Below are positions 1 through 29,015 of a stretch of DNA of 35,827 nucleotides, piece after piece. The notes below the pieces were generated by a model that was given only the letters and a program-made list of their open reading frames with translations, was not told the origin of the DNA and did no database searches. A program made the position numbers and the translations under genes. The number at the start of each line of letters is the position of its first letter. Within the stretch, counting starts at the first letter, position 1. Origin of the DNA: Thermodesulfovibrionia bacterium (GTDB lineage: Bacteria; Nitrospirota; Thermodesulfovibrionia; UBA6902); assembly GCA_020057065.1 (NCBI GenBank), contig JAGVGM010000271.1, positions 1-35,827 on the forward strand, read 5' to 3'.

Positions 1-52
1 GGTGATAGGTGATAGGTGATAGGTGATAGGTGATAGGTGATAGGTGATAGGT
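1..52. repeat. Perfect 7-bp tandem array (unit GGTGATA, about 7 copies)
   Basis: The window opens inside or at the start of a perfect tandem array of the heptamer GGTGATA. Because the unit is not a multiple of three and contains TGA and TAG, a few copies place stop codons in all reading frames. The array runs directly into a GTAGGGGC-headed hairpin. The same unit and the same arrangement recur between livM and livG at 4402-4462. Confidence 0.97.
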
Positions 53-75
53 AGGGGCGGGTTTCAAACCCGCCC
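51..75 (+). repeat. GTAGGGGC-headed palindrome (REP-like), copy 1
   Basis: A 25-bp imperfect palindrome begins with the head GTAGGGGC and folds as GGGCGGGTTT against AAACCCGCCC with almost no loop. Further copies lie at 4438-4462, 5715-5739, 14248-14269 (degenerate), 16764-16788, 23246-23267 (opposite strand) and 28974-28998. A GTAG tetranucleotide before a palindrome is the known signature of REP sequences recognised by RAYT (TnpA-REP) transposases; the assignment here is inference because no such transposase gene is in the window. Confidence 0.85.
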
Positions 76-103
76 TTGCGGATGGGATACTTGGAGAATG
101 TAA

Positions 104-1834
104 TTGAAGAAAATCAGGATAGCGCTTGCACAAATAAATTCCACTGTTGGTGATCTTTCAGGAAATAAAAGGAAGATAGGCTCTTATATTAAAAAAGCAA
201 AAAAGTTAAGAGCTGATTGTATAGTGTTTCCTGAGCTTGCTGTAACAGGGTATCCTCCGGAAGACCTTTTGTTGAAACCCCAGTTCATTGCCGACAATAT
301 CGATGCCATGAATGTAATAATTGCTGAAACCAAAGGGATAACAACTGTTGTTGGTTTTGTTGATAATAACCACGGACTGTATAATGCAGCAGCAGTTATA
401 TCAAACAAGAAACTTGTTGACGTCTATCACAAAAAATATTTGCCTAATTACGGGGTATTTGATGAATATCGATATTTTCAGTCGGGAAAGAGATTCCCTG
501 TTTATAATATGGGCGGGGTTCGGATAGGCGTGAATATCTGTGAAGATATATGGCAGGAAAAAGGCCCTGCAAAAATACAGGCCCTGTCCGGCGCAGAAGT
601 TATAATAAATATCAATGCCTCGCCATATCATATGGGGAAACTGTCGATCAGGGAGGAGCTGCTGTCTGCAAGGGCGCAGGAATGCGGAGCAATAATTATT
701 TATGTAAATATGACAGGAGGGCAGGATGAACTTGTTTTTGACGGAGGAAGTCTTATAGTTGACAGGAACGGCAAAATTATTGGCAGGGGAAGGCAATTCA
801 GGGAAGAATTGCTGGTTGCGGATATCGATATCAAGGGTCAAATTCAGAAAATAACTGATAAGAATAAAAGAGAGCTGAAAACCCTGCTGCAGAATGATGA
901 GTATGTTGAAAACATAAAAATATCCTCTGTATTAATAAGTGGACAGAAACCGGCCATAAGGCAGAAGAAGTTTATCAGGATGGCTCAAAGCGAAGAAGTA
1001 TATAATGCGCTTTTGTCAGGTACAAAAGACTATGTACACAAGAACGGATTCAGTAATGTAATTATCGGAATGAGCGGAGGTATAGACTCTGCCCTTGTTA
1101 CTACAATTGCAGTAGACGCTCTTGGAAAAGAGAATGTCCATGGCCTGTTCATGCCGTCTGAATATACATCACAGGAAAGTTACGATGATGCTTATGCTCA
1201 CGCAGAGAACCTCGGCATTAAAATCACGACAATTCCTATTGATAATGTATTAAAAACATATTTAAATATCTTGTCCGACAGTTTCAGAGGTTTAAAACCG
1301 GATATCACAGAAGAAAATCTTCAGGCCAGGATCAGGGGCAATATATTAATGGCTTTCTCGAACAAGTTCGGCTGGCTTGTTCTCACTACCGGGAACAAAT
1401 CCGAGATGAGTGTTGGTTACGCAACGTTATACGGCGATATGGCCGGAGGTTTTGCCGTTATTAAGGATGTACCAAAGACCCTGGTATATGAGCTCTGTAA
1501 GTGGAGGAATGAAAAAGAAGGCAGGGAATTGATCCCGCATAGGATCATGTGGAAAGAGCCGACAGCAGAGCTGAGGCCGGATCAGCGTGATACGGATACA
1601 CTGCCGCCTTATCCTGTACTTGATCCTGTTTTAAAGGCATATGTGGAAGAGGACCTCAGCTTTGATGATATAGTTAACCTGGAGTGCAGTATCGAGTGCG
1701 TTAAAAAAGTTGTAAAAATGGTTGATCATGCTGAATATAAAAGACGGCAGGCGCCGCCGGGAGTTAAGATAACGCCAAGGGCTTTCGGCAAGGACCGGCG
1801 TTTCCCGATAACGAACAGGTATAAAAGCTATTAG
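104..1834 (+). CDS. nadE: NAD+ synthetase, glutamine-hydrolysing (fused amidase + synthetase)
   Basis: This enzyme makes NAD+ from nicotinic acid adenine dinucleotide, ATP and glutamine in the cytoplasm. The N-terminal nitrilase-type glutaminase domain (about residues 1-260) shows the Glu-Lys-Cys triad as E44 in FPELAVTGYPPEDL, K111 before YLPNYGVFDE and C146 in NICEDIW. The C-terminal synthetase domain has the PP-loop SGGIDSAL at 324-331 and LTTGNKSEMSVGYATLYGD further on. Its 576 residues are normal for the two-domain form. The start is TTG at 104, seven bases after a GGAG; an ATG at 99 is followed at once by a stop. The last codons (Ser, Tyr, stop) already belong to the 7-bp array that follows. 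With nadC at 29016 the window holds two NAD-pathway genes, not linked in an operon. Confidence 0.97.
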   Translation: MKKIRIALAQINSTVGDLSGNKRKIGSYIKKAKKLRADCIVFPELAVTGYPPEDLLLKPQFIADNIDAMNVIIAETKGITTVVGFVDNNHGLYNAAAVISNKKLVDVYHKKYLPNYGVFDEYRYFQSGKRFPVYNMGGVRIGVNICEDIWQEKGPAKIQALSGAEVIININASPYHMGKLSIREELLSARAQECGAIIIYVNMTGGQDELVFDGGSLIVDRNGKIIGRGRQFREELLVADIDIKGQIQKITDKNKRELKTLLQNDEYVENIKISSVLISGQKPAIRQKKFIRMAQSEEVYNALLSGTKDYVHKNGFSNVIIGMSGGIDSALVTTIAVDALGKENVHGLFMPSEYTSQESYDDAYAHAENLGIKITTIPIDNVLKTYLNILSDSFRGLKPDITEENLQARIRGNILMAFSNKFGWLVLTTGNKSEMSVGYATLYGDMAGGFAVIKDVPKTLVYELCKWRNEKEGRELIPHRIMWKEPTAELRPDQRDTDTLPPYPVLDPVLKAYVEEDLSFDDIVNLECSIECVKKVVKMVDHAEYKRRQAPPGVKITPRAFGKDRRFPITNRYKSY

Positions 1835-1888
1835 CTGTCAGCAATCAGCTATCAGCAAACAGCTAAAAGCTGATCGCTGATAGCTAAA
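1826..1888 (+). repeat. Degenerate 7-bp array (AGCNNNN units, 9 copies)
   Basis: Nine consecutive heptamers, each beginning AGC (one begins CGC): AGCTATT, AGCTGTC, AGCAATC, AGCTATC, AGCAAAC, AGCTAAA, AGCTGAT, CGCTGAT, AGCTAAA. The period is kept without a slip although the units differ at up to four positions. The array starts inside the final codons of nadE and supplies its TAG stop, and it ends just before the ribosome-binding site of the lipoprotein gene. Arrays with the same AGC phase occur at 5683 and 35708. Confidence 0.85.
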
Positions 1889-1899
1889 AAGGAGGGGAC

Positions 1900-2157
1900 A
1901 TGCGAAGAACCATATTATTGTTTTGCGTAATTTATTTGTTGATTTCTACACAGGCCTGTACCGATCCTAAAGGTCAAAAGCAGGAACCAGTCTTCAAACA
2001 GCTGCCTGACATCCAGGAGATCAAACCGGAGAGACCCGCAAAGATAAAACTCAAACGCGATGCAAAGGATGATCACTCATGGGAAATAAGCGGGGATGAT
2101 GTTGATGAGATCATCAGGGTGGATAAGAAGTTGAGAAAAGACCTGAAGACAGATTAG
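1900..2157 (+). CDS. Small predicted lipoprotein, function unknown
   Basis: An 85-residue protein with a charged N-terminus, a hydrophobic stretch (residues 5-16) and a lipobox-like STQAC with Cys at position 20, so it is probably a lipid-anchored envelope protein. The mature part is highly charged, rich in Lys, Asp and Pro, with no domain that I recognise. The start is well supported by AAGGAGGGG ending five bases before the ATG. It follows nadE after the 7-bp array and is closed by a strong hairpin at 2188. Some small lipoproteins act in envelope maintenance or as entry-exclusion-like factors, but nothing here points to a particular job. Confidence 0.75.
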   Translation: MRRTILLFCVIYLLISTQACTDPKGQKQEPVFKQLPDIQEIKPERPAKIKLKRDAKDDHSWEISGDDVDEIIRVDKKLRKDLKTD

Positions 2158-2187
2158 CATCACCGTAAATACAATATCCAATATTTA

Positions 2188-2220
2188 CCCCGTTAGAAGG
2201 ACGAAGGTCTTCTAACGGGG
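2188..2220 (+). terminator. Strong 12-bp perfect hairpin after the lipoprotein gene
   Basis: CCCCGTTAGAAG pairs perfectly with CTTCTAACGGGG across a 9-base loop. It is placed 30 bases past the stop codon, which suits transcription termination. The downstream tract is only TTTG, so it may act as a pause or mRNA-end-protecting hairpin rather than a classical intrinsic terminator. Confidence 0.6.
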
Positions 2221-2222
2221 TT

Positions 2223-2390
2223 TGCAGTTGCAGGTAAGCCTTTAGTTATGGGAGGATTGTATGATTCCCCTCTTTGAAAAAGAGGGGTTAGGGGAGATTT
2301 TATAGAATGAATTGAAAAAATCCCCCCTTGCCCCCCTTTGCCAAAGGGGGGGATAACCCGCATAACTGAGGGATTATCACTGCAGTTGCA
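2223..2390 (+). mobile_element. MITE-like element with 10-bp flanking direct repeats
   Basis: The outermost 10 bases on each side are the same, TGCAGTTGCA at 2223-2232 and 2381-2390, and look like a target-site duplication. Inside, the two ends are inverted copies: CCTTTAGTTATGGG on the left against CCCTCAGTTATGCGGG (complement) on the right. Each end is followed inward by a hairpin, CCCCTCTTTG with its complement at 2266-2287 and CCCCCCTTTG with its complement at 2331-2352, and then by a GGGGAGATTTT-like block pointing to the centre. No gene is inside. It lies immediately before livH, so it may carry or separate the livH promoter. Half copies occur at 14265, 17745, 29859 and 34843. Confidence 0.7.
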
Positions 2391-2445
2391 CATGCTGTTG
2401 CAATCCTATACACATCTCCTCTTCAATTTGTTACAATTTCACACC

Positions 2446-3348
2446 ATGCTGCTCCAGCAAATAATTAACGGTCTGACAGTCGGAGGAGTGTATGCTCTGA
2501 TCGCGCTCGGGTATACGCTGGTTTATGGGATCCTTGAGCTGATAAATTTCGCTCATGGCGAAATCTACATGATCGGAGCTTATTTGGGGATCATCTTTCT
2601 GGGTATCTTCACTGCAGCAGGACTCACCCAGTATAGTCTGATCCTGTCATTGTTCTTAACTTTTGTCATGTCCATTATTGTTTGTTCTGCATATGGGTTT
2701 ACTATCGAGAAACTTGCATACAAACCATTGCGGAATGCGCCGAGGCTTAATCCCCTGATAAGCGCAATAGGCGTATCGATCTTTCTCCAGAATTACGTGA
2801 TGCTTACACAGGGCGCAACGGACAAGGTATTCCCGCATGTTATACCGGTCACAAAGATTGAGTTTTCGAACGTTACGATGACCACCCTGCAGCTCTTCAT
2901 TATCATTTTCTCACTCCTGCTTATGACAATGCTGCATCTTTTTATCATGAAGACAAAGACCGGCAAGGCTATGAGGGCGGTAGCACAGGACCGGGTGATG
3001 GCGTCGCTTCTTGGGATCAATATAGACAGGATTATTTCAGTAACGTTTATTATCGGTTCGGGACTGGCTGCTGTTGCCGGTTTAATGGTTGCCATGTATT
3101 ACGGCCTTGTGAATTATTCGATCGGTTATATGGCAGGCATAAAGGCGTTTACTGCTGCTGTTCTCGGAGGCATCGGAAGCATCCCCGGCGCAATGATCGG
3201 CGGGTTTTTACTCGGGCTTATAGAGAGCCTCGGTGCCAGTTATTTATCAAGCGAATACAAAGATGCGTATGCGTTTATTGTTCTGATCCTGATCCTGCTT
3301 GTGAAGCCGACCGGATTATTTGGAAGATCGGAGGGGGACAAGCGGTGA
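2446..3348 (+). CDS. livH: Branched-chain amino acid ABC transporter, permease LivH
   Basis: This is the first of two inner-membrane permeases of a LIV-type (hydrophobic amino acid or related ligand) importer. It begins LLQQIINGLTVGGVYALIAL, the typical N-terminal helix, contains INFAHGEIYMIGAY, and has the cytoplasmic loop for the ATPases around TGKAMRAVAQDRVMASLLGI. The open frame extends upstream to 2338, but that part runs through a MITE-like repeat, so ATG 2446 (300 residues, the normal family length) is preferred; ATG 2392 is possible. Neither start has a clear Shine-Dalgarno sequence, so the start is the weakest point of this call. livM overlaps its stop by four bases. Confidence 0.92.
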   Translation: MLLQQIINGLTVGGVYALIALGYTLVYGILELINFAHGEIYMIGAYLGIIFLGIFTAAGLTQYSLILSLFLTFVMSIIVCSAYGFTIEKLAYKPLRNAPRLNPLISAIGVSIFLQNYVMLTQGATDKVFPHVIPVTKIEFSNVTMTTLQLFIIIFSLLLMTMLHLFIMKTKTGKAMRAVAQDRVMASLLGINIDRIISVTFIIGSGLAAVAGLMVAMYYGLVNYSIGYMAGIKAFTAAVLGGIGSIPGAMIGGFLLGLIESLGASYLSSEYKDAYAFIVLILILLVKPTGLFGRSEGDKR

Positions 3349-4406
3349 AGAAGTTGATCTTCATGCTATGGCTTTCTGTATTGTCAATGCCTTTTATGGG
3401 GATCAAAGGAGGGATATATCTCTTCCTCGGGATGTTATCTTCATACGGCATCTATCTTTTATTGGCAAATATATTCGGTAAGATCAATAAGCCTGCCATT
3501 CCTGTTAATATAAAATTTATTTTTACTGCATTAATTGCAGTCTCTTTCATTTTTCCCTTGTTAGTAAAAGACTACTATACGGATGTTGCGATCCTGGTCT
3601 GCATTTATATTATACTCGCACTTGGCGTAAATATCGTTATAGGTTTCAGCGGTCTCCTGCATCTCGGCTTTGCAGCGTTTTACGGCATAGGCGCATATAC
3701 AAATGCCCTGCTGACAACACATTTCGGCCTTGGCTTCTGGAGCGCGCTTCCTTTGACATTGATAGTCACTTCTGTTTCAGGCTTGTTACTGGCAGTTCCT
3801 TCATTCCGGCTCAGGGGAGATTATTTAGCCATTGTCACTTTGGGCTTTGGTGAGATAATCCGCCTTGTGCTGAATAACTGGGACAGTGTAACGAGGGGGC
3901 CGAACGGAATATCGAATATCCCTTCTCCCTTTATACTTGGTTTTGAGATCAGCAGTTTGATGTTCTATTACTACTTTGTTCTGTTCTTTGTTTTTTTAGC
4001 CGCATTTATAGTTAATCGCGTTCATCGTTCGAGAACAGGAAGGGCCTGGCTGTCAATTCGTGAGGATGAAACAGCGGCAGAGGCGATGGGCATTAATACG
4101 AAGAAATACAAATTCATGGCATTGACATTCGGCGCTTTCTGGGCCGGTCTTGCAGGAGCGTTATTTGCGAGCAAGATGCACTTCGTATCACCTGAGAGTT
4201 TTTCATTCATGGAATCCGTCTTCGTAGTCTGCATGATCATACTCGGGGGCCTCGGCAGCATACCGGGAGTGATACTCGGTTCATTGATACTTGTTCTTTT
4301 ACCGGAATTATTAAGAGAGTTTCAGTCGTACAGGATGCTCGCTCTCGGCATCGGTCTTGTATTGATGATGATATTCAGGCCGCAGGGGTTGGTGAGAAAT
4401 AGGTGA
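3345..4406 (+). CDS. livM: Branched-chain amino acid ABC transporter, permease LivM
   Basis: The second LIV permease, 353 residues, multi-spanning. The N-terminal third is a set of hydrophobic helices as in LivM; the core has DVAILVCIYIILALGVNIV, GFSGLLHLGFAAFYGIGAY and the ATPase-contact loop SRTGRAWLSIREDETAAEAM, then ILGGLGSIPGVILGS near the end, the same signature as in LivH. It starts with GTG in a GTGA overlap with livH, behind GGAGGGGG, which implies translational coupling. The TGA stop is provided by the first unit of the 7-bp array that follows. Confidence 0.94.
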   Translation: MKKLIFMLWLSVLSMPFMGIKGGIYLFLGMLSSYGIYLLLANIFGKINKPAIPVNIKFIFTALIAVSFIFPLLVKDYYTDVAILVCIYIILALGVNIVIGFSGLLHLGFAAFYGIGAYTNALLTTHFGLGFWSALPLTLIVTSVSGLLLAVPSFRLRGDYLAIVTLGFGEIIRLVLNNWDSVTRGPNGISNIPSPFILGFEISSLMFYYYFVLFFVFLAAFIVNRVHRSRTGRAWLSIREDETAAEAMGINTKKYKFMALTFGAFWAGLAGALFASKMHFVSPESFSFMESVFVVCMIILGGLGSIPGVILGSLILVLLPELLREFQSYRMLALGIGLVLMMIFRPQGLVRNR

Positions 4407-4462
4407 TAGGTGATAGGTGATAGGTGATAGGTGATAGGTTGGGGCGGGTTTGAAACCTGCCT
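4400..4462 (+). repeat. 7-bp array (AGGTGAT, 5 copies) joined to a GTTGGGGC hairpin
   Basis: Five perfect AGGTGAT units (4402-4438) run straight into a palindrome of the GTAGGGGC class (4438-4462), here with head GTTG and an imperfect stem. Order and spacing match 1-75. The array contributes the last residue and stop codon of livM, and the whole unit occupies the gap before livG inside the operon. Confidence 0.92.
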
Positions 4463-4481
4463 TTAGAAACAGGATACAATT

Positions 4482-5246
4482 ATGATATTAGAAGTCAGGG
4501 CATTGACAAAGGCTTTTGGAGGACTCAAGGCGGTTGAGGAAGTTGGTTTCAGGGTAAAACGCGGGAGCATTCTCAGCATAATAGGCCCAAACGGCGCCGG
4601 TAAGACTACGTTATTCAACTGTCTTACAGGTATGCTTTCTCCGACAAAGGGGCAGGTATTGTTTGAAGACGAAGACATCACGCATAAAAGACCATATGAA
4701 ATTACCGCAAAGGGAATTGCGCGGACGTTCCAGAATTTAAGGGTATTCGGTTCAATGACTGTCCTCGAAAACGTAATGATCGGACAGCATACACGTTCAA
4801 AGGAAGGATTGTTTACTGCGATATTAGGCACAAACAGATTTCGCAGGGAAGAGGATGAAATAAAATCAAAGGCGTTTGAATATCTGGAATTCGTTGGTAT
4901 ACAGGACTATGCTGATACCCTTGCAGAGAACCTTCCATACGGCGATCAGAAACGTCTTGAGATCGCAAGGGCGCTTGCAACAGAGCCAAAGCTCCTGCTG
5001 CTTGATGAGCCCGCCGCGGGCATGAATCCGCAGGAGACCATGGAATTAATGAAGCTCATCAAAAGGATCAGGGAGTGGGACAAGACAGTTATCATAATCG
5101 AGCATGACATGAAGGTTGTTATGGGTATATCGGATTGGATCATTGTCCTGGACCACGGAGTAAAAATTGCGGAGGGAACGCCGAATGATATACAGAACAA
5201 TCCCGATGTGATAGAGGCGTATTTGGGGAAAGAGGAGGTTATTTAG
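4482..5246 (+). CDS. livG: Branched-chain amino acid ABC transporter, ATP-binding protein LivG
   Basis: First of the two cytoplasmic ATPases that power the LIV importer. Walker A is GPNGAGKTT at residues 35-43, the ABC signature region is LPYGDQKRLEIARALA (about 150-165), Walker B is LLLLDEPAAGMNPQE, and the switch His is in VIIIEHDMKVVM. LivG-specific features are RTFQNLRVFGSMTVLENVM and the C-terminal LDHGVKIAEGTP...YLGKE. At 254 residues it has normal length. Only a weak AGGA precedes the ATG, probably because the repeat filling the livM-livG gap replaced the original leader. Confidence 0.95.
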   Translation: MILEVRALTKAFGGLKAVEEVGFRVKRGSILSIIGPNGAGKTTLFNCLTGMLSPTKGQVLFEDEDITHKRPYEITAKGIARTFQNLRVFGSMTVLENVMIGQHTRSKEGLFTAILGTNRFRREEDEIKSKAFEYLEFVGIQDYADTLAENLPYGDQKRLEIARALATEPKLLLLDEPAAGMNPQETMELMKLIKRIREWDKTVIIIEHDMKVVMGISDWIIVLDHGVKIAEGTPNDIQNNPDVIEAYLGKEEVI

Positions 5247-5269
5247 GTAATGTCTGAAAGATATGGTTA

Positions 5270-5348
5270 CAAAATCTCCCCTCACCCCTCTTTGTCAAAG
5301 AGGGGGATAGCTTTCCCCCTTTGTAAAAGGGGGATGAAGGGGGATTTT
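5270..5348 (+). repeat. Two adjacent CCCCTCTTTG-type hairpins between livG and livF
   Basis: Hairpin one is CCCCTCTTTG-T-CAAAGAGGGG and hairpin two is CCCCCTTTGTAAAAGGGGG; each is bordered on the outside by the TCTCCCCT or AGGGGGATTTT block found in the MITE-like elements, so this is two half elements, here with the hairpins facing inward. It fills most of the 128-bp livG-livF gap. It could act as an internal attenuator or mRNA stabiliser. Confidence 0.8.
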
Positions 5349-5374
5349 AAGAACAATTTAATTTTAGATATCTT

Positions 5375-6118
5375 ATGCTAAAACTTGAAAGTGTTCATAC
5401 ATCTTACGGACGTATTGAAGCGATCAAGGGGATAAGCCTTGAGATCAGCAGGGGAGAGATCGTCTGCCTCATCGGAAGCAACGGTGCAGGTAAAAGTACC
5501 ACTCTGATGACGATATCGAAGATCCTTACGCCATCAAGGGGGAGTGTAATTTTTGAAGGGAATGATATTAAAGAACTGCCCCCGCATAAAATTGTCTCAA
5601 TAGGTATATCCCAGGTCCCTGAAGGGAGAAGGATTTTCCCAAAACTTACAGTAGGAGAAAACCTGGAAATGGGAGAGTATTTAGCGGTCAGCGGTCAGCG
5701 GTCAGCCGTCAGCCGTAGGGGCGAGGCGGTGCCTCGCCCAAAAGATAATCAATTAGAACATGTCTTCAACCTGTTTCCTATTCTCAAAGAAAGACAAAAA
5801 CAGATGGGAGGGACACTCAGCGGAGGAGAACAGCAGATGCTTGCGATCGGAAGGGCGCTCATGTCCAAGCCTAAACTCCTCCTGCTTGACGAACCATCCC
5901 TCGGACTTGCGCCAATTATCGTAAGTAAGATTTTCAAAACGATCAGGGAACTAAATGCAGAAGGGTTGACGATCCTTCTTGTCGAACAGAATGCAAAGGC
6001 AGCTTTGAGGCTGGCCCACAGGGGATACGTTATGGAATCCGGAAGAATTACAAAAGAGGGAAAGGGTAGGGATCTTCTCGATGATCCTGATATCAAGAAG
6101 GCATATCTGGGAGAGTGA
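5375..6118 (+). CDS. livF: Branched-chain amino acid ABC transporter, ATP-binding protein LivF, with repeat-encoded insert
   Basis: Second LIV ATPase. Walker A is GSNGAGKSTT (34-43), the signature is TLSGGEQQMLAIGRALM (about 147-163), Walker B is LLLLDEPSLGLAP (168-180), and the His switch is in LLVEQNAKAAL. Between ENLEMGEYL (95-103) and HVFNLFPILKER (129-140), where the family has a short variable linker, residues about 104-122 are encoded by a 7-bp array plus a GTAGGGGC hairpin. The insert keeps the frame, and the protein at 247 residues is roughly ten longer than usual. The site is on the helical-domain surface, so the protein is probably still active. There is no clear ribosome-binding site before ATG 5375. 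Confidence 0.93.
   Translation: MLKLESVHTSYGRIEAIKGISLEISRGEIVCLIGSNGAGKSTTLMTISKILTPSRGSVIFEGNDIKELPPHKIVSIGISQVPEGRRIFPKLTVGENLEMGEYLAVSGQRSAVSRRGEAVPRPKDNQLEHVFNLFPILKERQKQMGGTLSGGEQQMLAIGRALMSKPKLLLLDEPSLGLAPIIVSKIFKTIRELNAEGLTILLVEQNAKAALRLAHRGYVMESGRITKEGKGRDLLDDPDIKKAYLGE
5683..5739 (+). repeat. AGCGGTC array plus GTAGGGGC hairpin inside the livF reading frame
   Basis: Three AGCGGTC units, one AGCCGTC and one AGCCGTA (5683-5716) overlap the head of a perfect GTAGGGGC palindrome (5715-5739; stem GGCGAGGC/GCCTCGCC). The segment is 57 bp, a multiple of three, and has no stop in the frame used. It is the same array-plus-hairpin composite as at 1-75 and 4400-4462, but here inside a coding sequence. 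Confidence 0.92.
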
Positions 6119-6275
6119 GAAGAAGTGCAAAAGCACAGCAGTGCAAAAGTGCAGAAGATCAAAAGCGCAAAAGTAAAAAAACAATTAATCCTTTACGATG
6201 AATACCACGCCATTTTATCAGCCCGGTTTTTACTTCTGCACTTCTACGCTTTTGCACTTTTGCTCTGTTGTACTG
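6115..6275 (+). repeat. Pair of inverted 8-bp-period arrays between livF and livK
   Basis: From about 6119 seven octamers of the type NAAGTGCA follow each other (GAAGTGCA, AAAGCACA, GCAGTGCA, AAAGTGCA, GAAGATCA, AAAGCGCA, AAAGTAAA). At about 6231-6275 a second array of the same type lies in inverted orientation (TTCTGCAC, TTCTACGC, TTTTGCAC, TTTTGCTC). The transcript could form a long imperfect hairpin between livF and livK; such a structure may set the higher level of binding protein relative to the membrane parts. This last point is inference. Confidence 0.75.
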
Positions 6276-6321
6276 TTTTCTGTTAGAATTTCTGAAAATA
6301 TTAAAACCTGGGGAGGGAGAA

Positions 6322-7431
6322 ATGCTAAAAAGAATTTTGCTGCTTTCACTTACATTGTTTATCATATTTGCTTGTGTTAAAAAAGGCGAAGATGTGATAA
6401 AGATCGGGGTTGCAGGACCGATGACCGGCGACCAGGCCAAGATGGGAACCGATTTTAAAAACGGTGTTGCGCTTGCAATTGAGGAATGGAATGCAAAAGG
6501 AGGGGTATTGGGGGAAAAGATCGTGAATCTTACGGAGGATGACCAGCATGACCCCAAGCAGGCTGTTTCCATAGCAAACAAACTTGTCAATGAGGGCGTG
6601 GCGGGTGTGATAGGGCATTTCAATTCGAGCTGCTCCATCCCCGCTTCGGATGTATATAACCGTGCAGGAGTTCCCATGATAACGCCGGCATCAACAAACC
6701 CGCAGCTTACGGAAAGGGGTTATCAGGGTGTATTCAGGGTCTGCGGAAGGGATGATCAGCAGGGCAAAGTAGGCGCTGATTTTACGATCACACAATTAAA
6801 GTTTAAAAGGGTTGCCGTAATACATGACAAGACTACCTATGGACAGGGGCTTGCAAATGAGTTCAGGAAAAATTTAGGAGACAGAGCAGAGGTTGTTTAT
6901 TACGGAGGGATAGTGCAGGGAGACAAGGATTTCAAGACTGTGCTGACTTCCATCAAAGAAAAAAAACCGGAGCTTATATTTTTAGGAGGAATATATCCTG
7001 AAGGGGGGCTTTTGGTAAGGCAGTCCCGTGAGATCGGATTAAACGTCCCGTTTATGAGCGGCGATGGAGTTATTGATCCTAAATTTATTGAAATAGCAGG
7101 AGCAGAGGCTGCAGAGGGGACTTATCTGACCTTCAGTCAGGACCCTAATGGGATCCCTACAGCAAAGGCGTTTATAGAACATTACAAGGCTAAATTCGGT
7201 GAGATCGGCCCTTATTCAAATTATGCATATGATGCGGCGAATATAATGCTGAAGGCTATAGAGGCTGCCGGAACAACAGAAGGCAAGGCGATTATAAATA
7301 AACTTCATTCCATGGAATTTAGCGGCACATTAGGGAATATAAAGTTCGATGCCAAAGGCGACGTGACTGTAGCGCCCTATGTGGTATGGATTACGAAAAA
7401 CGGGAAGTTTGAAGAATACTGGAAACCGTAG
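6322..7431 (+). CDS. livK: Branched-chain amino acid ABC transporter, substrate-binding lipoprotein LivK
   Basis: The ligand-binding subunit of the importer, a periplasmic-binding protein type 1 fold (Peripla_BP_6). From ATG 6322 it has a lipoprotein signal with IIFAC (Cys 18). Family motifs are IKIGVAGPMTGDQAKMGTD near the mature N-terminus, LVNEGVAGVIGHFNSSCSIPAS, PMITPASTNPQLTERGY (ligand-contact serine/threonine region), FRVCGRDDQQGKVGADF, and the late YDAANIMLKAIEAAG. The frame is open up to 6268, but GGGAGGGAGA directly before 6322 decides the start. Its position last in the operon, after a hairpin region and before a terminator, fits separate dosing. The ligand could be an amino acid, amide or small carboxylate; sequence alone does not decide. 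Confidence 0.95.
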   Translation: MLKRILLLSLTLFIIFACVKKGEDVIKIGVAGPMTGDQAKMGTDFKNGVALAIEEWNAKGGVLGEKIVNLTEDDQHDPKQAVSIANKLVNEGVAGVIGHFNSSCSIPASDVYNRAGVPMITPASTNPQLTERGYQGVFRVCGRDDQQGKVGADFTITQLKFKRVAVIHDKTTYGQGLANEFRKNLGDRAEVVYYGGIVQGDKDFKTVLTSIKEKKPELIFLGGIYPEGGLLVRQSREIGLNVPFMSGDGVIDPKFIEIAGAEAAEGTYLTFSQDPNGIPTAKAFIEHYKAKFGEIGPYSNYAYDAANIMLKAIEAAGTTEGKAIINKLHSMEFSGTLGNIKFDAKGDVTVAPYVVWITKNGKFEEYWKP

Positions 7432-12409: not shown

Positions 12410-14251
12410 ATGGATATAGAAGGAAGATTAAAAGAATTAGCCAGACTCATCCGTTATTACATCCTTGTCTCAACAACAGAGGCAGGGTCAGGGCATCCAA
12501 CATCTTCGTTGTCAGCAGCAGATCTGATGACATGCCTGTTATTCGGGAATGTATTCAGATTCGATATAGCCCATCCCGAGCATCCGAACAATGACCGGCT
12601 TATTTTTTCAAAGGGCCATGCCTCACCGCTATTTTACTCGCAGTGGGCTGCAGCAGGGGTTTTGAGCTATGAGCAACTGATGAGCCTGCGAAAATTCGGC
12701 AGTATTCTTGAAGGACATCCGACCCCGGCATTTAATTTTGTTGAAGCAGCAACAGGTTCTTTGGGACAGGGACTTTCCATAGGGGTCGGGATCGCCTTAA
12801 ATGCAAAATATATAGATAAATTACCATATAACACCTTTGTGCTTCTCGGAGACAGTGAAATGGCTGAAGGTTCTCAATGGGAGGCAATACAGATCGCCGC
12901 ACATTACAAACTGGACAACCTTATCGGGATCCTTGATGTCAACCGTCTGGGTCAGCGCGGGGAGACGATGTACGGGCATGATATTGCCGCATATGAAAGG
13001 CGAATTTCATCTTTCGGATGGCAAACCATTATGATCGATGGTCATTCATTAACTGAAATACTCTCTGCATATGAAAATGCACTGAAGTCAAATGACAGAC
13101 CTGCTATGATCATTGCCGGAACCACGAAAGGGAAGGGTGTATCATTTCTTGAAGACAAAAATGGATGGCACGGAAAGGCAGTTACAAAAGAAGAGCTTCC
13201 AAAGGCGCTTGAAGAAATAGGGGAAGTAGATAAATCAATCCGCGGCGAAATACCCGGGCCTGAAGATCTTATGCCTGAAAAAAAATTATCAGGGACGATG
13301 AAAGAGATTTACTATGCCCATGATAAACCTGTTGCCACGAGAAAGGCATATGGTAATGCACTGAAACGCATCTTCACTGCTTTTCCCGATATTGTCGTTC
13401 TGGATGCAGAGGTGAGCAATTCAACCTATTCCGAGATATTTAAGAACGAATATCCCGACAGGTTTTTTGAAATGTATATTGCAGAGCAGAATATGGCGGG
13501 TGCGGCCCTCGGCCTGTCAAGCAGGGGCAAGATCCCTTTTGTTTCGACATTTGCAGCATTTTTAACCCGTGCATATGACCAGATAAGAATGAGCCAATAC
13601 TCGGATTCCAATATTAAATTCTGCGGCTCTCACGCAGGTGTATCTATCGGTGAAGACGGAGCTTCACAGATGGGGCTTGAGGACCTTGCCATGTTTCGGA
13701 CGCTTCTCGACAGTGTGGTGCTTTATCCTTCAGATGCTGTTTCAACAGAGAGGCTGATTGAAGAGATGGCAAAACACAAGGGGATATCTTATATACGCAC
13801 AACAAGAAAAGAAACACCCATTATTTACAACATCGATGAAAAATTTATGATCGGCGGGAGTAAGGTATTAACTGAGAGCAAAGAAGATGTTTTCACTGTT
13901 GCGAGCGCCGGGATCACACTGCATGAGGCGCTTAATGCTTATGAGGCATTGAAAAAAGAAAATATCATTATCCGTGTAATTGACCTTTATTGCATTAAAC
14001 CAATTGACGCGGTAACGCTTAAGAAAGCGGCAGAAGACACAAGAGCTATAATTACTGTTGAAGACCATTTTGCTGAAGGCGGGATAGGCGAAGCGGTAAG
14101 AAGCTCACTTGCAGAGAGTACGGTTCCTGTCTACTCACTTGCAGTAAGAAAAATGCCCCGGAGCGGGAAGCCGCAGGAACTTCTCGAGTATGAGGAGATA
14201 TCAAGCAAGGCGATTATTGCGAAGGTGAAGACTTTGCTTGGTAAGATGTAG
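12410..14251 (+). CDS. tkt: Transketolase (single-chain, animal/archaeal-like length)
   Basis: A thiamine-diphosphate enzyme moving two-carbon units between sugar phosphates in the non-oxidative pentose phosphate pathway. Motifs: GSGHPTSSLSAADLM (about 27-40), FSKGHASPL, EAATGSLGQGLSIGVG (112-127), and the ThDP/metal motif GDSEMAEGSQWEA (147-159) with DVNRLGQ. The second half has the catalytic-cofactor Glu in IAEQNMAGAALGLSS (E359) and RAYDQIRMSQ. The C-terminal domain is present (SVVLYPSDAVSTE, ITVEDHFAEGGIGEAV). At 613 residues it resembles the shorter class found in animals and many anaerobes rather than the 660-residue E. coli type. GDS replaces the common GDG. It is preceded by a TATAAT with leaderless spacing. 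Confidence 0.95.
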   Translation: MDIEGRLKELARLIRYYILVSTTEAGSGHPTSSLSAADLMTCLLFGNVFRFDIAHPEHPNNDRLIFSKGHASPLFYSQWAAAGVLSYEQLMSLRKFGSILEGHPTPAFNFVEAATGSLGQGLSIGVGIALNAKYIDKLPYNTFVLLGDSEMAEGSQWEAIQIAAHYKLDNLIGILDVNRLGQRGETMYGHDIAAYERRISSFGWQTIMIDGHSLTEILSAYENALKSNDRPAMIIAGTTKGKGVSFLEDKNGWHGKAVTKEELPKALEEIGEVDKSIRGEIPGPEDLMPEKKLSGTMKEIYYAHDKPVATRKAYGNALKRIFTAFPDIVVLDAEVSNSTYSEIFKNEYPDRFFEMYIAEQNMAGAALGLSSRGKIPFVSTFAAFLTRAYDQIRMSQYSDSNIKFCGSHAGVSIGEDGASQMGLEDLAMFRTLLDSVVLYPSDAVSTERLIEEMAKHKGISYIRTTRKETPIIYNIDEKFMIGGSKVLTESKEDVFTVASAGITLHEALNAYEALKKENIIIRVIDLYCIKPIDAVTLKKAAEDTRAIITVEDHFAEGGIGEAVRSSLAESTVPVYSLAVRKMPRSGKPQELLEYEEISSKAIIAKVKTLLGKM

Positions 14252-16763: not shown

Positions 16764-16834
16764 GTAGGGGCGAGGCGCTGCCTCGCCCGATATTTAAAAA
16801 ATCTCCCCTGACCCCTCTTTGTCAAAGAGGGGAA
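16764..16834 (+). repeat. GTAGGGGC hairpin followed by a CCCCTCTTTG half-element
   Basis: The hairpin at 16764-16788 has a perfect stem GGCGAGGC/GCCTCGCC, identical to the livF copy except for one loop base. At 16800-16834 the block ATCTCCCCTGACCCCTCTTT with its complement follows. As at 14248, both classes are adjacent. Confidence 0.85.
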
Positions 16835-23236: not shown

Positions 23237-23267
23237 AAAAAAGGACGACCCATCGGGTCGCCCCTAC
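23237..23267 (-). terminator. GTAGGGGC hairpin serving as terminator of the secreted-protein gene
   Basis: Read on the minus strand, the hairpin GGGCGACCC-GAT-GGGTCGTCC is followed by six T, 36 bases past the stop of the 23303-24739 gene. All stem positions pair in the minus-strand RNA, one of them as a G-U pair; on the plus strand the same position is an A-C mismatch. So selection, if any, acts on the minus-strand transcript. It is a repeat taken into use as an intrinsic terminator. Confidence 0.75.
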
Positions 23268-28973: not shown

Positions 28974-28998
28974 GTAGGGGCGGGTTTTAAACCCGCCT
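28974..28998 (+). repeat. GTAGGGGC hairpin between the beta-helix gene and nadC
   Basis: GTAGGGGCGGGTTTTAAACCCGCC, a perfect palindrome after the head, differs from the copy at 51-75 only in the loop. It lies seven bases after the upstream stop and 18 bases before nadC. Confidence 0.9.
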
Positions 28999-29015
28999 TT
29001 ACAAATGGAACATAA

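Follow-up and report, generated by a model that had tools for sequence, protein, structure and literature searches.

Seven-base-pair tandem arrays and GTAG-type REP hairpins meet at shared sites in a Thermodesulfovibrionia genus

Array-hairpin composites of the window

The contig JAGVGM010000271.1 of a Thermodesulfovibrionia bacterium (35,827 nucleotides, hereafter the window) carries tandem arrays of 7-bp units that run directly into hairpins of the repetitive extragenic palindrome (REP) type. Counts over this genome (G000) and its congeners (G001 to G009) revealed that the array-REP pairing is real and one-sided, the array lying on the GTAG side of the hairpin. We propose that two separate repeat systems probably meet here at the same permissive spots, the array being neither a part of the REP nor a product of its mobilisation.

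The three composites that the original prediction had placed at 1-75, 4402-4462 and 5683-5739 do exist, as arrays detected by Tandem Repeats Finder (TRF) are directly continued in the window sequence by heads at 51, 4438 and 5715. The first comprises 7.4 units of GGTGATA (1-52, plus strand, truncated by the contig end) and a GTAG REP at 51-79 (plus strand) with head GTAGGGGC and stem GGGCGGGTTT/AAACCCGCCC, located upstream of an NAD+ synthase gene at 104. The second array, 5.9 units of ATAGGTG (4399-4439, plus strand), starts at the stop codon that ends a livM-like permease gene. Its REP (4438-4462, plus strand), with head GTTGGGGC and one G-T pair, precedes a livG-like gene at 4482. The third, 4.4 units of AGCGGTC (5683-5714, or 5683-5713 by TRF, plus strand) with a GTAG REP at 5715-5739 (plus strand, head GTAGGGGC, stem GGGCGAGGC/GCCTCGCCC), is an in-frame part of the livF-like gene (5375-6118, plus strand) for a branched-chain amino acid ABC transporter ATPase, where it occupies a species-variable loop. 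Further GTAG REPs at 16764-16788 (plus), 28974-29000 (plus) and 23243-23267 (minus) have no array.

Folding as single-stranded DNA (ssDNA) of the copies with heads at 51, 4438, 5715, 16764, 28974 and 23267 (minus strand) revealed an unpaired head followed by an 8-9-pair stem with a 3-nt loop, with z scores of -3.5 to -5.1 (-4.6, -3.8 and -5.1 for the composites at 51, 4438 and 5715). Seven hairpins had been predicted to share the head; six are real in the window, five with GTAGGGGC and one with GTTGGGGC (GTTG), and the seventh, at 14248, matches in the head only, its ssDNA fold not being REP-like (z -1.4).

The association is one-sided

The association was counted in sampled sequence of G000 (917,714 bases, window included), G008 (389,998), G003 (400,000) and G005 (400,000). 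A head was defined as GT[AT]GGGGC followed by a perfect stem of 6 or more, symmetric elements being counted once per strand; the window copy at 4438 is excluded by its G-T pair. The rule found 169 heads, of which 162 had full 40-nt flanks (7 were dropped), and an array was called when a lag-7 run of at least 10 fell within 40 nt of the head. Arrays were found upstream, that is on the GTAG side, of 13 heads (7/110, 3/33, 3/12 and 0/7 in G000, G008, G003 and G005), with about 1.5 expected from random intergenic windows, which hold an array in 0.76%, 0.89%, 2.48% and 0.59% of cases in the same order (P 6e-9). The single downstream array among the 162 belongs to the symmetric element L040:9927 read on the opposite strand, and no upstream runs at these heads were found with lags of 5, 6, 8, 9 or 10. 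Of the 13, 6 were already known when the stretches were selected; the remaining 7, set against the same 1.5, yield P 8e-4. A second sample, 29 distinct heads from 30 loci of G002, G004 and G007, gave arrays upstream of 4 and downstream of none. The upstream 7-bp autocorrelation that had been proposed as a check was therefore borne out, on the GTAG side only. The junction, which had been predicted to fall always at the GTAG or GTTG, does so in the three window composites; elsewhere in the genus a gap of up to about ten bases separates array and head.

The size of the excess depends on the control. Windows of 40 nt directly past sense stops hold an array in 144 of 4905 cases (2.9%), and 65 of 981 sense stops have one in any of five such windows (6.6%). 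Among heads within 100 nt past a sense stop, 5 of 43 have an array (p 0.009 against the single-window rate and p 0.16 against the any-of-five rate), so the array excess is modest against this control. Arrays accompany 6 of 45 intragenic heads and occur in 50 of 40,000 random windows, a comparison not matched for insertion-tolerant loops. Part of the excess, perhaps the greater part, is attributable to both kinds of repeat being tolerated at the same sites.

The hairpins belong to a GTAG REP family with RAYT genes

Within the window alone the heads are not rare by chance (21 with at most one mismatch against a shuffle mean of 15.2, with 5 of 100 shuffles reaching 21). The family is evident genome-wide rather than window-wide, because the G000 genome (4.16 Mb, 377 contigs, 98.7% complete, 6% contamination) contains 225 GTAGGGGCG heads compared with 25 matches of a reversed control pattern, the high copy number of a GTAG REP. 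The nine congeners carry 9 to 151 such heads, the lowest number, in G001, lying under its own control of 25.

Seven Y1_Tnp matches were found in G000. Three of them, on contigs C346, C243 and C357, contain the motif MPNH[LI]HG, which we take to be the HUH motif, and match NF047646 (REP-associated tyrosine transposase, RAYT) with E values of 1.3e-16 to 4.1e-19, all scoring under the 80-bit cut-off. Family models match these genes only in parts because a REP lies inside each frame. The predicted RAYT flanked by the same hairpin was found: the C346 gene has GTAGGGGCGGGTTTNAAACCCGCCCCTAC, with a GGGTTT stem, at both ends and a near-identical copy within its reading frame shortly past the motif, and C243 and C357 have REPs of the GTAGAGAC and GTAGGGGC types, respectively, at the 5' end and inside the gene. 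The GGGTTT stem is common to the C346 REPs and the window copies at 51, 4438 and 28974. One of the other four Y1_Tnp loci (C284) has a REP about 1.2 kb off, and no head was found in the stretch examined around each of the remaining three. The window hairpins are GTAG-type REPs with the RAYT-mobilised layout that had been predicted, and resident RAYTs presumably mobilise them.

REP-free orthologous sites exist, since the REP at L090:14227 is missing in G005 and the tilS REP of G007 is missing in G000, G005 and G008. As separate observations, each of the three RAYT genes has a REP within its own frame soon past the catalytic motif (L035, L036, L037); the L090:14227 REP of G000 occupies the loop of another palindromic repeat, which stands without the REP in G005 (L186); and at one orthologous place the REP stem is GACCCGGCGGGTC in G000 (L090:16431) and GAACGGCCGTTC in G008 (L144), a case of stem turnover.

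Arrays probably form a system of their own

Period 7 is in excess among the tandem repeats: 0.92 Mb contains 89 such arrays with 3 or more copies, against 26 for the runner-up, period 8. When 300 arrays of at least 3 units were oriented by the purine-rich strand, a GTAGGGGC-type head lay within 45 nt downstream in 12 and upstream in 1, leaving 287 without such a head. The arrays number 97, 156, 272 and 120 per Mb in G000, G008, G003 and G005, the heads per genome 225, 120, 151 and 29; array density does not track REP number, and G005, with few REPs, is equally array-dense. Of 70 purine-rich arrays past a sense stop, with open reading frames called by length only, 42 start in the interval from 13 nt ahead of the stop to 15 nt beyond it.

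Other hairpin families were considered as array partners and gave no clear excess. Among 151 arrays that lack an inverted copy of themselves, inverted repeats of 8 or more occur within 70 nt downstream of 18 (10 of them REPs, read from the list) and upstream of 1, against a background of 9.4% (1124/12000) in mostly intergenic windows; the upstream scarcity may stem from arrays abutting coding DNA. Apart from this, an inverted self copy lies downstream of 82 and upstream of 14 of 243 oriented arrays, with the purine-rich arm first. Arrays of the same style but with an 8-bp period, each having an inverted partner, occur at 6123-6263 of the window and at the livM-livG junction of G008 and add a second unit length.

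Orthologous sites across congeners

The site comparison covers only orthologues whose sequence was viewed, and the G003 orthologue of L144:2863 is not among them. In livF, a 7-bp period was seen by eye at the same loop in all ten species. G007 has about two units there and the repeat of G001 is degenerate; the units include AGCGGTC, AGAAGTC, AAAGGGC and AAGGGGC. The array is followed by a REP in five species (G000, G008 and G004, with a mutated head in G002 and degraded in G009), by a CCCCCC-type palindrome in G006 and G007, and by neither in three, so that five species have the array without a GTAG REP, two of them with the other palindrome. The LivF tree gave good support only for the G004/G006 pair and the outgroup split, and independent REP gains were therefore not counted.

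In murE, an array was seen by eye in 8 of the 9 species examined (all but G009), G005 being the exception, followed by a REP in one (G003) and by a CCCCCC-type palindrome in four; 7 of the 8 REP-less species have the array. Array and palindrome can change separately at this site: the array is common to G000 and G008 with the palindrome only in G000, and the palindrome is common to G004 and G006 with the array altered. In tilS, all four species examined have the array, REP-less in three; in G007 (L222) the REP lies within it, with array on both sides and the open frame continuing through. REP-free arrays were also found at the G005 orthologues of L040:9927 and of L144:2863, which has a REP, and at the G003 orthologue of L156:9645. 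Site B (L174) has array and REP in G003, array alone in G004, G006 and G008, a REP alone in G002, and neither in G001, the sequences of G000 and G007 allowing no clear call. At 7 of the 10 sites compared (livF, murE, tilS, L040, L144, L156 and site B), some congener clearly carries the array with no GTAG REP.

The pattern at the other three sites is ambiguous or speaks against arrays coming first. At site A (L061), G000 and G003 have array and REP, G007 has an array and another hairpin, and G001, G006 and G009 have no array. The livM-livG junction, compared without G004, G006 and G007 (for which the query matched livF itself), has different arrays and different REPs in G000 and G003, neither in G002 and G005, inverted octamer arrays in G008, and short or degenerate repeats in G009 and G001. 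Upstream of nadE, the composite occurs in G000 alone among seven species, G008 having about two units.

In most congeners examined, the loops of livF, murE and tilS hold recurring, in-frame translated 7-bp arrays of differing unit (window 5683-5739; L175 and L326-L333 for murE; L222, L090, L186 and L144 for tilS), that is, core proteins with fast-changing, repeat-coded insertions at a fixed place. An unrelated palindrome, CCCCCCTT..AAGGGGGG, also stands 3' of the array in livF of two species and murE of four (L120-L126, L328-L330, L332).

Origin of the composites

The arrays without REPs, the mismatch between array and REP densities, the REP-less arrays at orthologous sites and the tilS REP inside an array together argue that arrays mostly came first and, contrary to one alternative of the original prediction, do not arise from REP mobilisation. 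At most sites examined the array would be the older part, an order that is inferred where few orthologues were compared. In the scheme we propose, 7-bp arrays of many units arise and turn over throughout the genus, most likely by replication slippage, and persist directly past stop codons or in insertion-tolerant gene loops. GTAG REPs are copied around the genome, presumably by the resident RAYT transposases, and a REP arriving, mostly later, beside or inside an array at a permissive spot would create a composite. The tilS case makes it possible that mobilisation targets arrays, an alternative in the original prediction; as noted above, shared site tolerance accounts for part of the excess.

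Several observations weigh against this scheme. Read on the purine-rich strand, the array almost always has the hairpin on its 3' side, a polarity that the scheme leaves unexplained. Past stop codons gene context explains it, because only the 3' side is free there; in livF, murE, L040 and L144, coding sequence lies on both sides, yet even there the hairpin follows the sense-strand array on its 3' side. If REPs simply inserted into arrays, array sequence would be expected to either side of them, which was seen once (tilS, L222). The side is not random, as one-ended heads have an array upstream in 12 of 82 and downstream in none (heads of two-ended elements, 1 of 80 on each side). Array and GTAG share the GT register in 8 of 16 usable composites out of 20, with 1 in 7 expected by chance; as proof of templating, the register was dropped, the whole-head score at phase 0 (28) lying inside the range of the other phases (21-31). 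At livF, G004 and G006 differ in both array unit and hairpin (L120 vs L123) within genes that otherwise show 86-96% identity in 100-column windows. At site B, G002 has a REP without an array, and at site A all three array-bearing species also have a hairpin after the array.

A bolder alternative, which we regard as unlikely, is growth of the array driven by the hairpin, through stalling of a polymerase at the REP or a RAYT cut 5' of it. In the latter version the freed 3'-OH would re-anneal one unit back and be extended; either way, 7-bp units would be added only on the GTAG side. TnpAREP is described, in the available text of PMC8266576, as cutting 5' or 3' of REPs, and the 3'-OH left could prime replication; left 5' of a REP, it would suit polarised growth, a minority reading. 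Such growth would account for the polarity, for the REP without array in G002 against the composite of G003 at site B, and for G004 and G006 differing at livF in array and hairpin alike. It is opposed by the 287 of 300 arrays that lack a nearby head, the REP-less arrays at most orthologous sites examined, and an array density that does not track REP number. The broader version is distinctly unlikely in our judgement: nicking by RAYT, or stalling of a polymerase, on the GTAG side of a REP would drive both polarised growth and renewal of 7-bp arrays, and those of Nitrospirota, cyanobacteria, Delongbacteria and ruminococci would be REP footprints, many of them orphaned after loss or replacement of the hairpin.

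We consider it very unlikely that selection keeps array and hairpin together as a 3'-end, regulatory or linker element. An array of some unit does recur at livF, murE and tilS, and the clustering of post-stop arrays around the stop would fit such a role; tolerance is the simpler reading of both, and the livM-livG junction is empty in G002 and G005. A terminator identity (a G+C-rich hairpin followed by a T run) was rejected for the three hairpins, none of which is among the 11 terminator-like sites of 1-6400, and no Rfam family matched this region at the gathering score. A mobile unit in which array and REP travel together, the stronger idea of the original prediction, is highly improbable. The different composites of G000 and G003 at livM-livG and the joint change at livF would fit it; against it, array units vary between composites and match no REP type, 149 of the 162 REP heads have no array, and at murE either part has changed while the other stayed.

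Relation to known repeats and breadth

The small dispersed repeats (SDRs) of Nostoc, attributed to Elhai et al. 2008, are reportedly tiny mobile palindromes that often lie within tandem repeats of heptamers, and we know of no transposase named for them. In comparison, the elements here are GTAG REPs with resident RAYTs in a one-sided arrangement; embedding with array on both sides was found in one case, L222, the others having the array on the GTAG side only.

Like the GTAG-superfamily REPs and REPtrons described in the available text of Di Nocera et al. 2013 (PMC3733652, where the name HUH is used too) and Corneloup et al. 2021 (PMC8266576), the window hairpins combine an unpaired GTAG with a short palindrome, high copy number and RAYT genes flanked by the same repeats. 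Unlike them as described there, about one head in twelve here has a 7-bp array on its GTAG side; the word heptamer is absent from the accessible text of PMC3733652. Heptanucleotide tandem repeats of bacteria are treated by MacGregor 2015 (PMC4679880), and the Geobacter metallireducens genome paper (PMC2700814) gives, in its available part, 49 four-unit heptamer elements within and between genes. The arrays here resemble these in their 7-bp units, several copies, and genic and intergenic positions, and differ from what those texts describe in having many units per genome, the same congener loops with other units, and an excess beside REPs. Our literature search, mainly of freely accessible papers, found no account of 7-bp arrays at REPs. 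Why the arrays that abound in many bacterial genomes have a 7-bp period has no tested explanation that we could find; slippage with a 7-nt polymerase contact has been proposed according to the available text of PMC4679880. A one-sided link to a hairpin of known enzymology, at sites comparable over ten congeners, makes array growth testable.

A scan of genome contigs of many organisms for an in-register array plus head returned 82 stretches, of which 80 became loci; as the pattern requires an array, it shows the existence of composites and not enrichment. The loci contain 86 matches; a stem is present in 45, a lag-7 run of 16 or more in 30 and both in 15, and in 8 a run lies downstream too. In random fillings of the pattern 99% of lag-7 runs were at most 9 and the maximum was 13 (n=20,000). 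The organisms include Okeania, Oscillatoria, Scytonema, Fischerella, Delongbacteria, Ruminococcus, Prevotellaceae and Nitrospirae, so similar array-hairpin composites occur in cyanobacteria and other phyla. JACRLN010000002.1, from a Nitrospirae metagenome-assembled genome (MAG), has the same livF composite as G008.

Contigs also start in, or a few bases from, REPs or arrays, as at window position 1 and in the G000 contigs C28, C39 and C77; MAG contigs probably break at these repeats.

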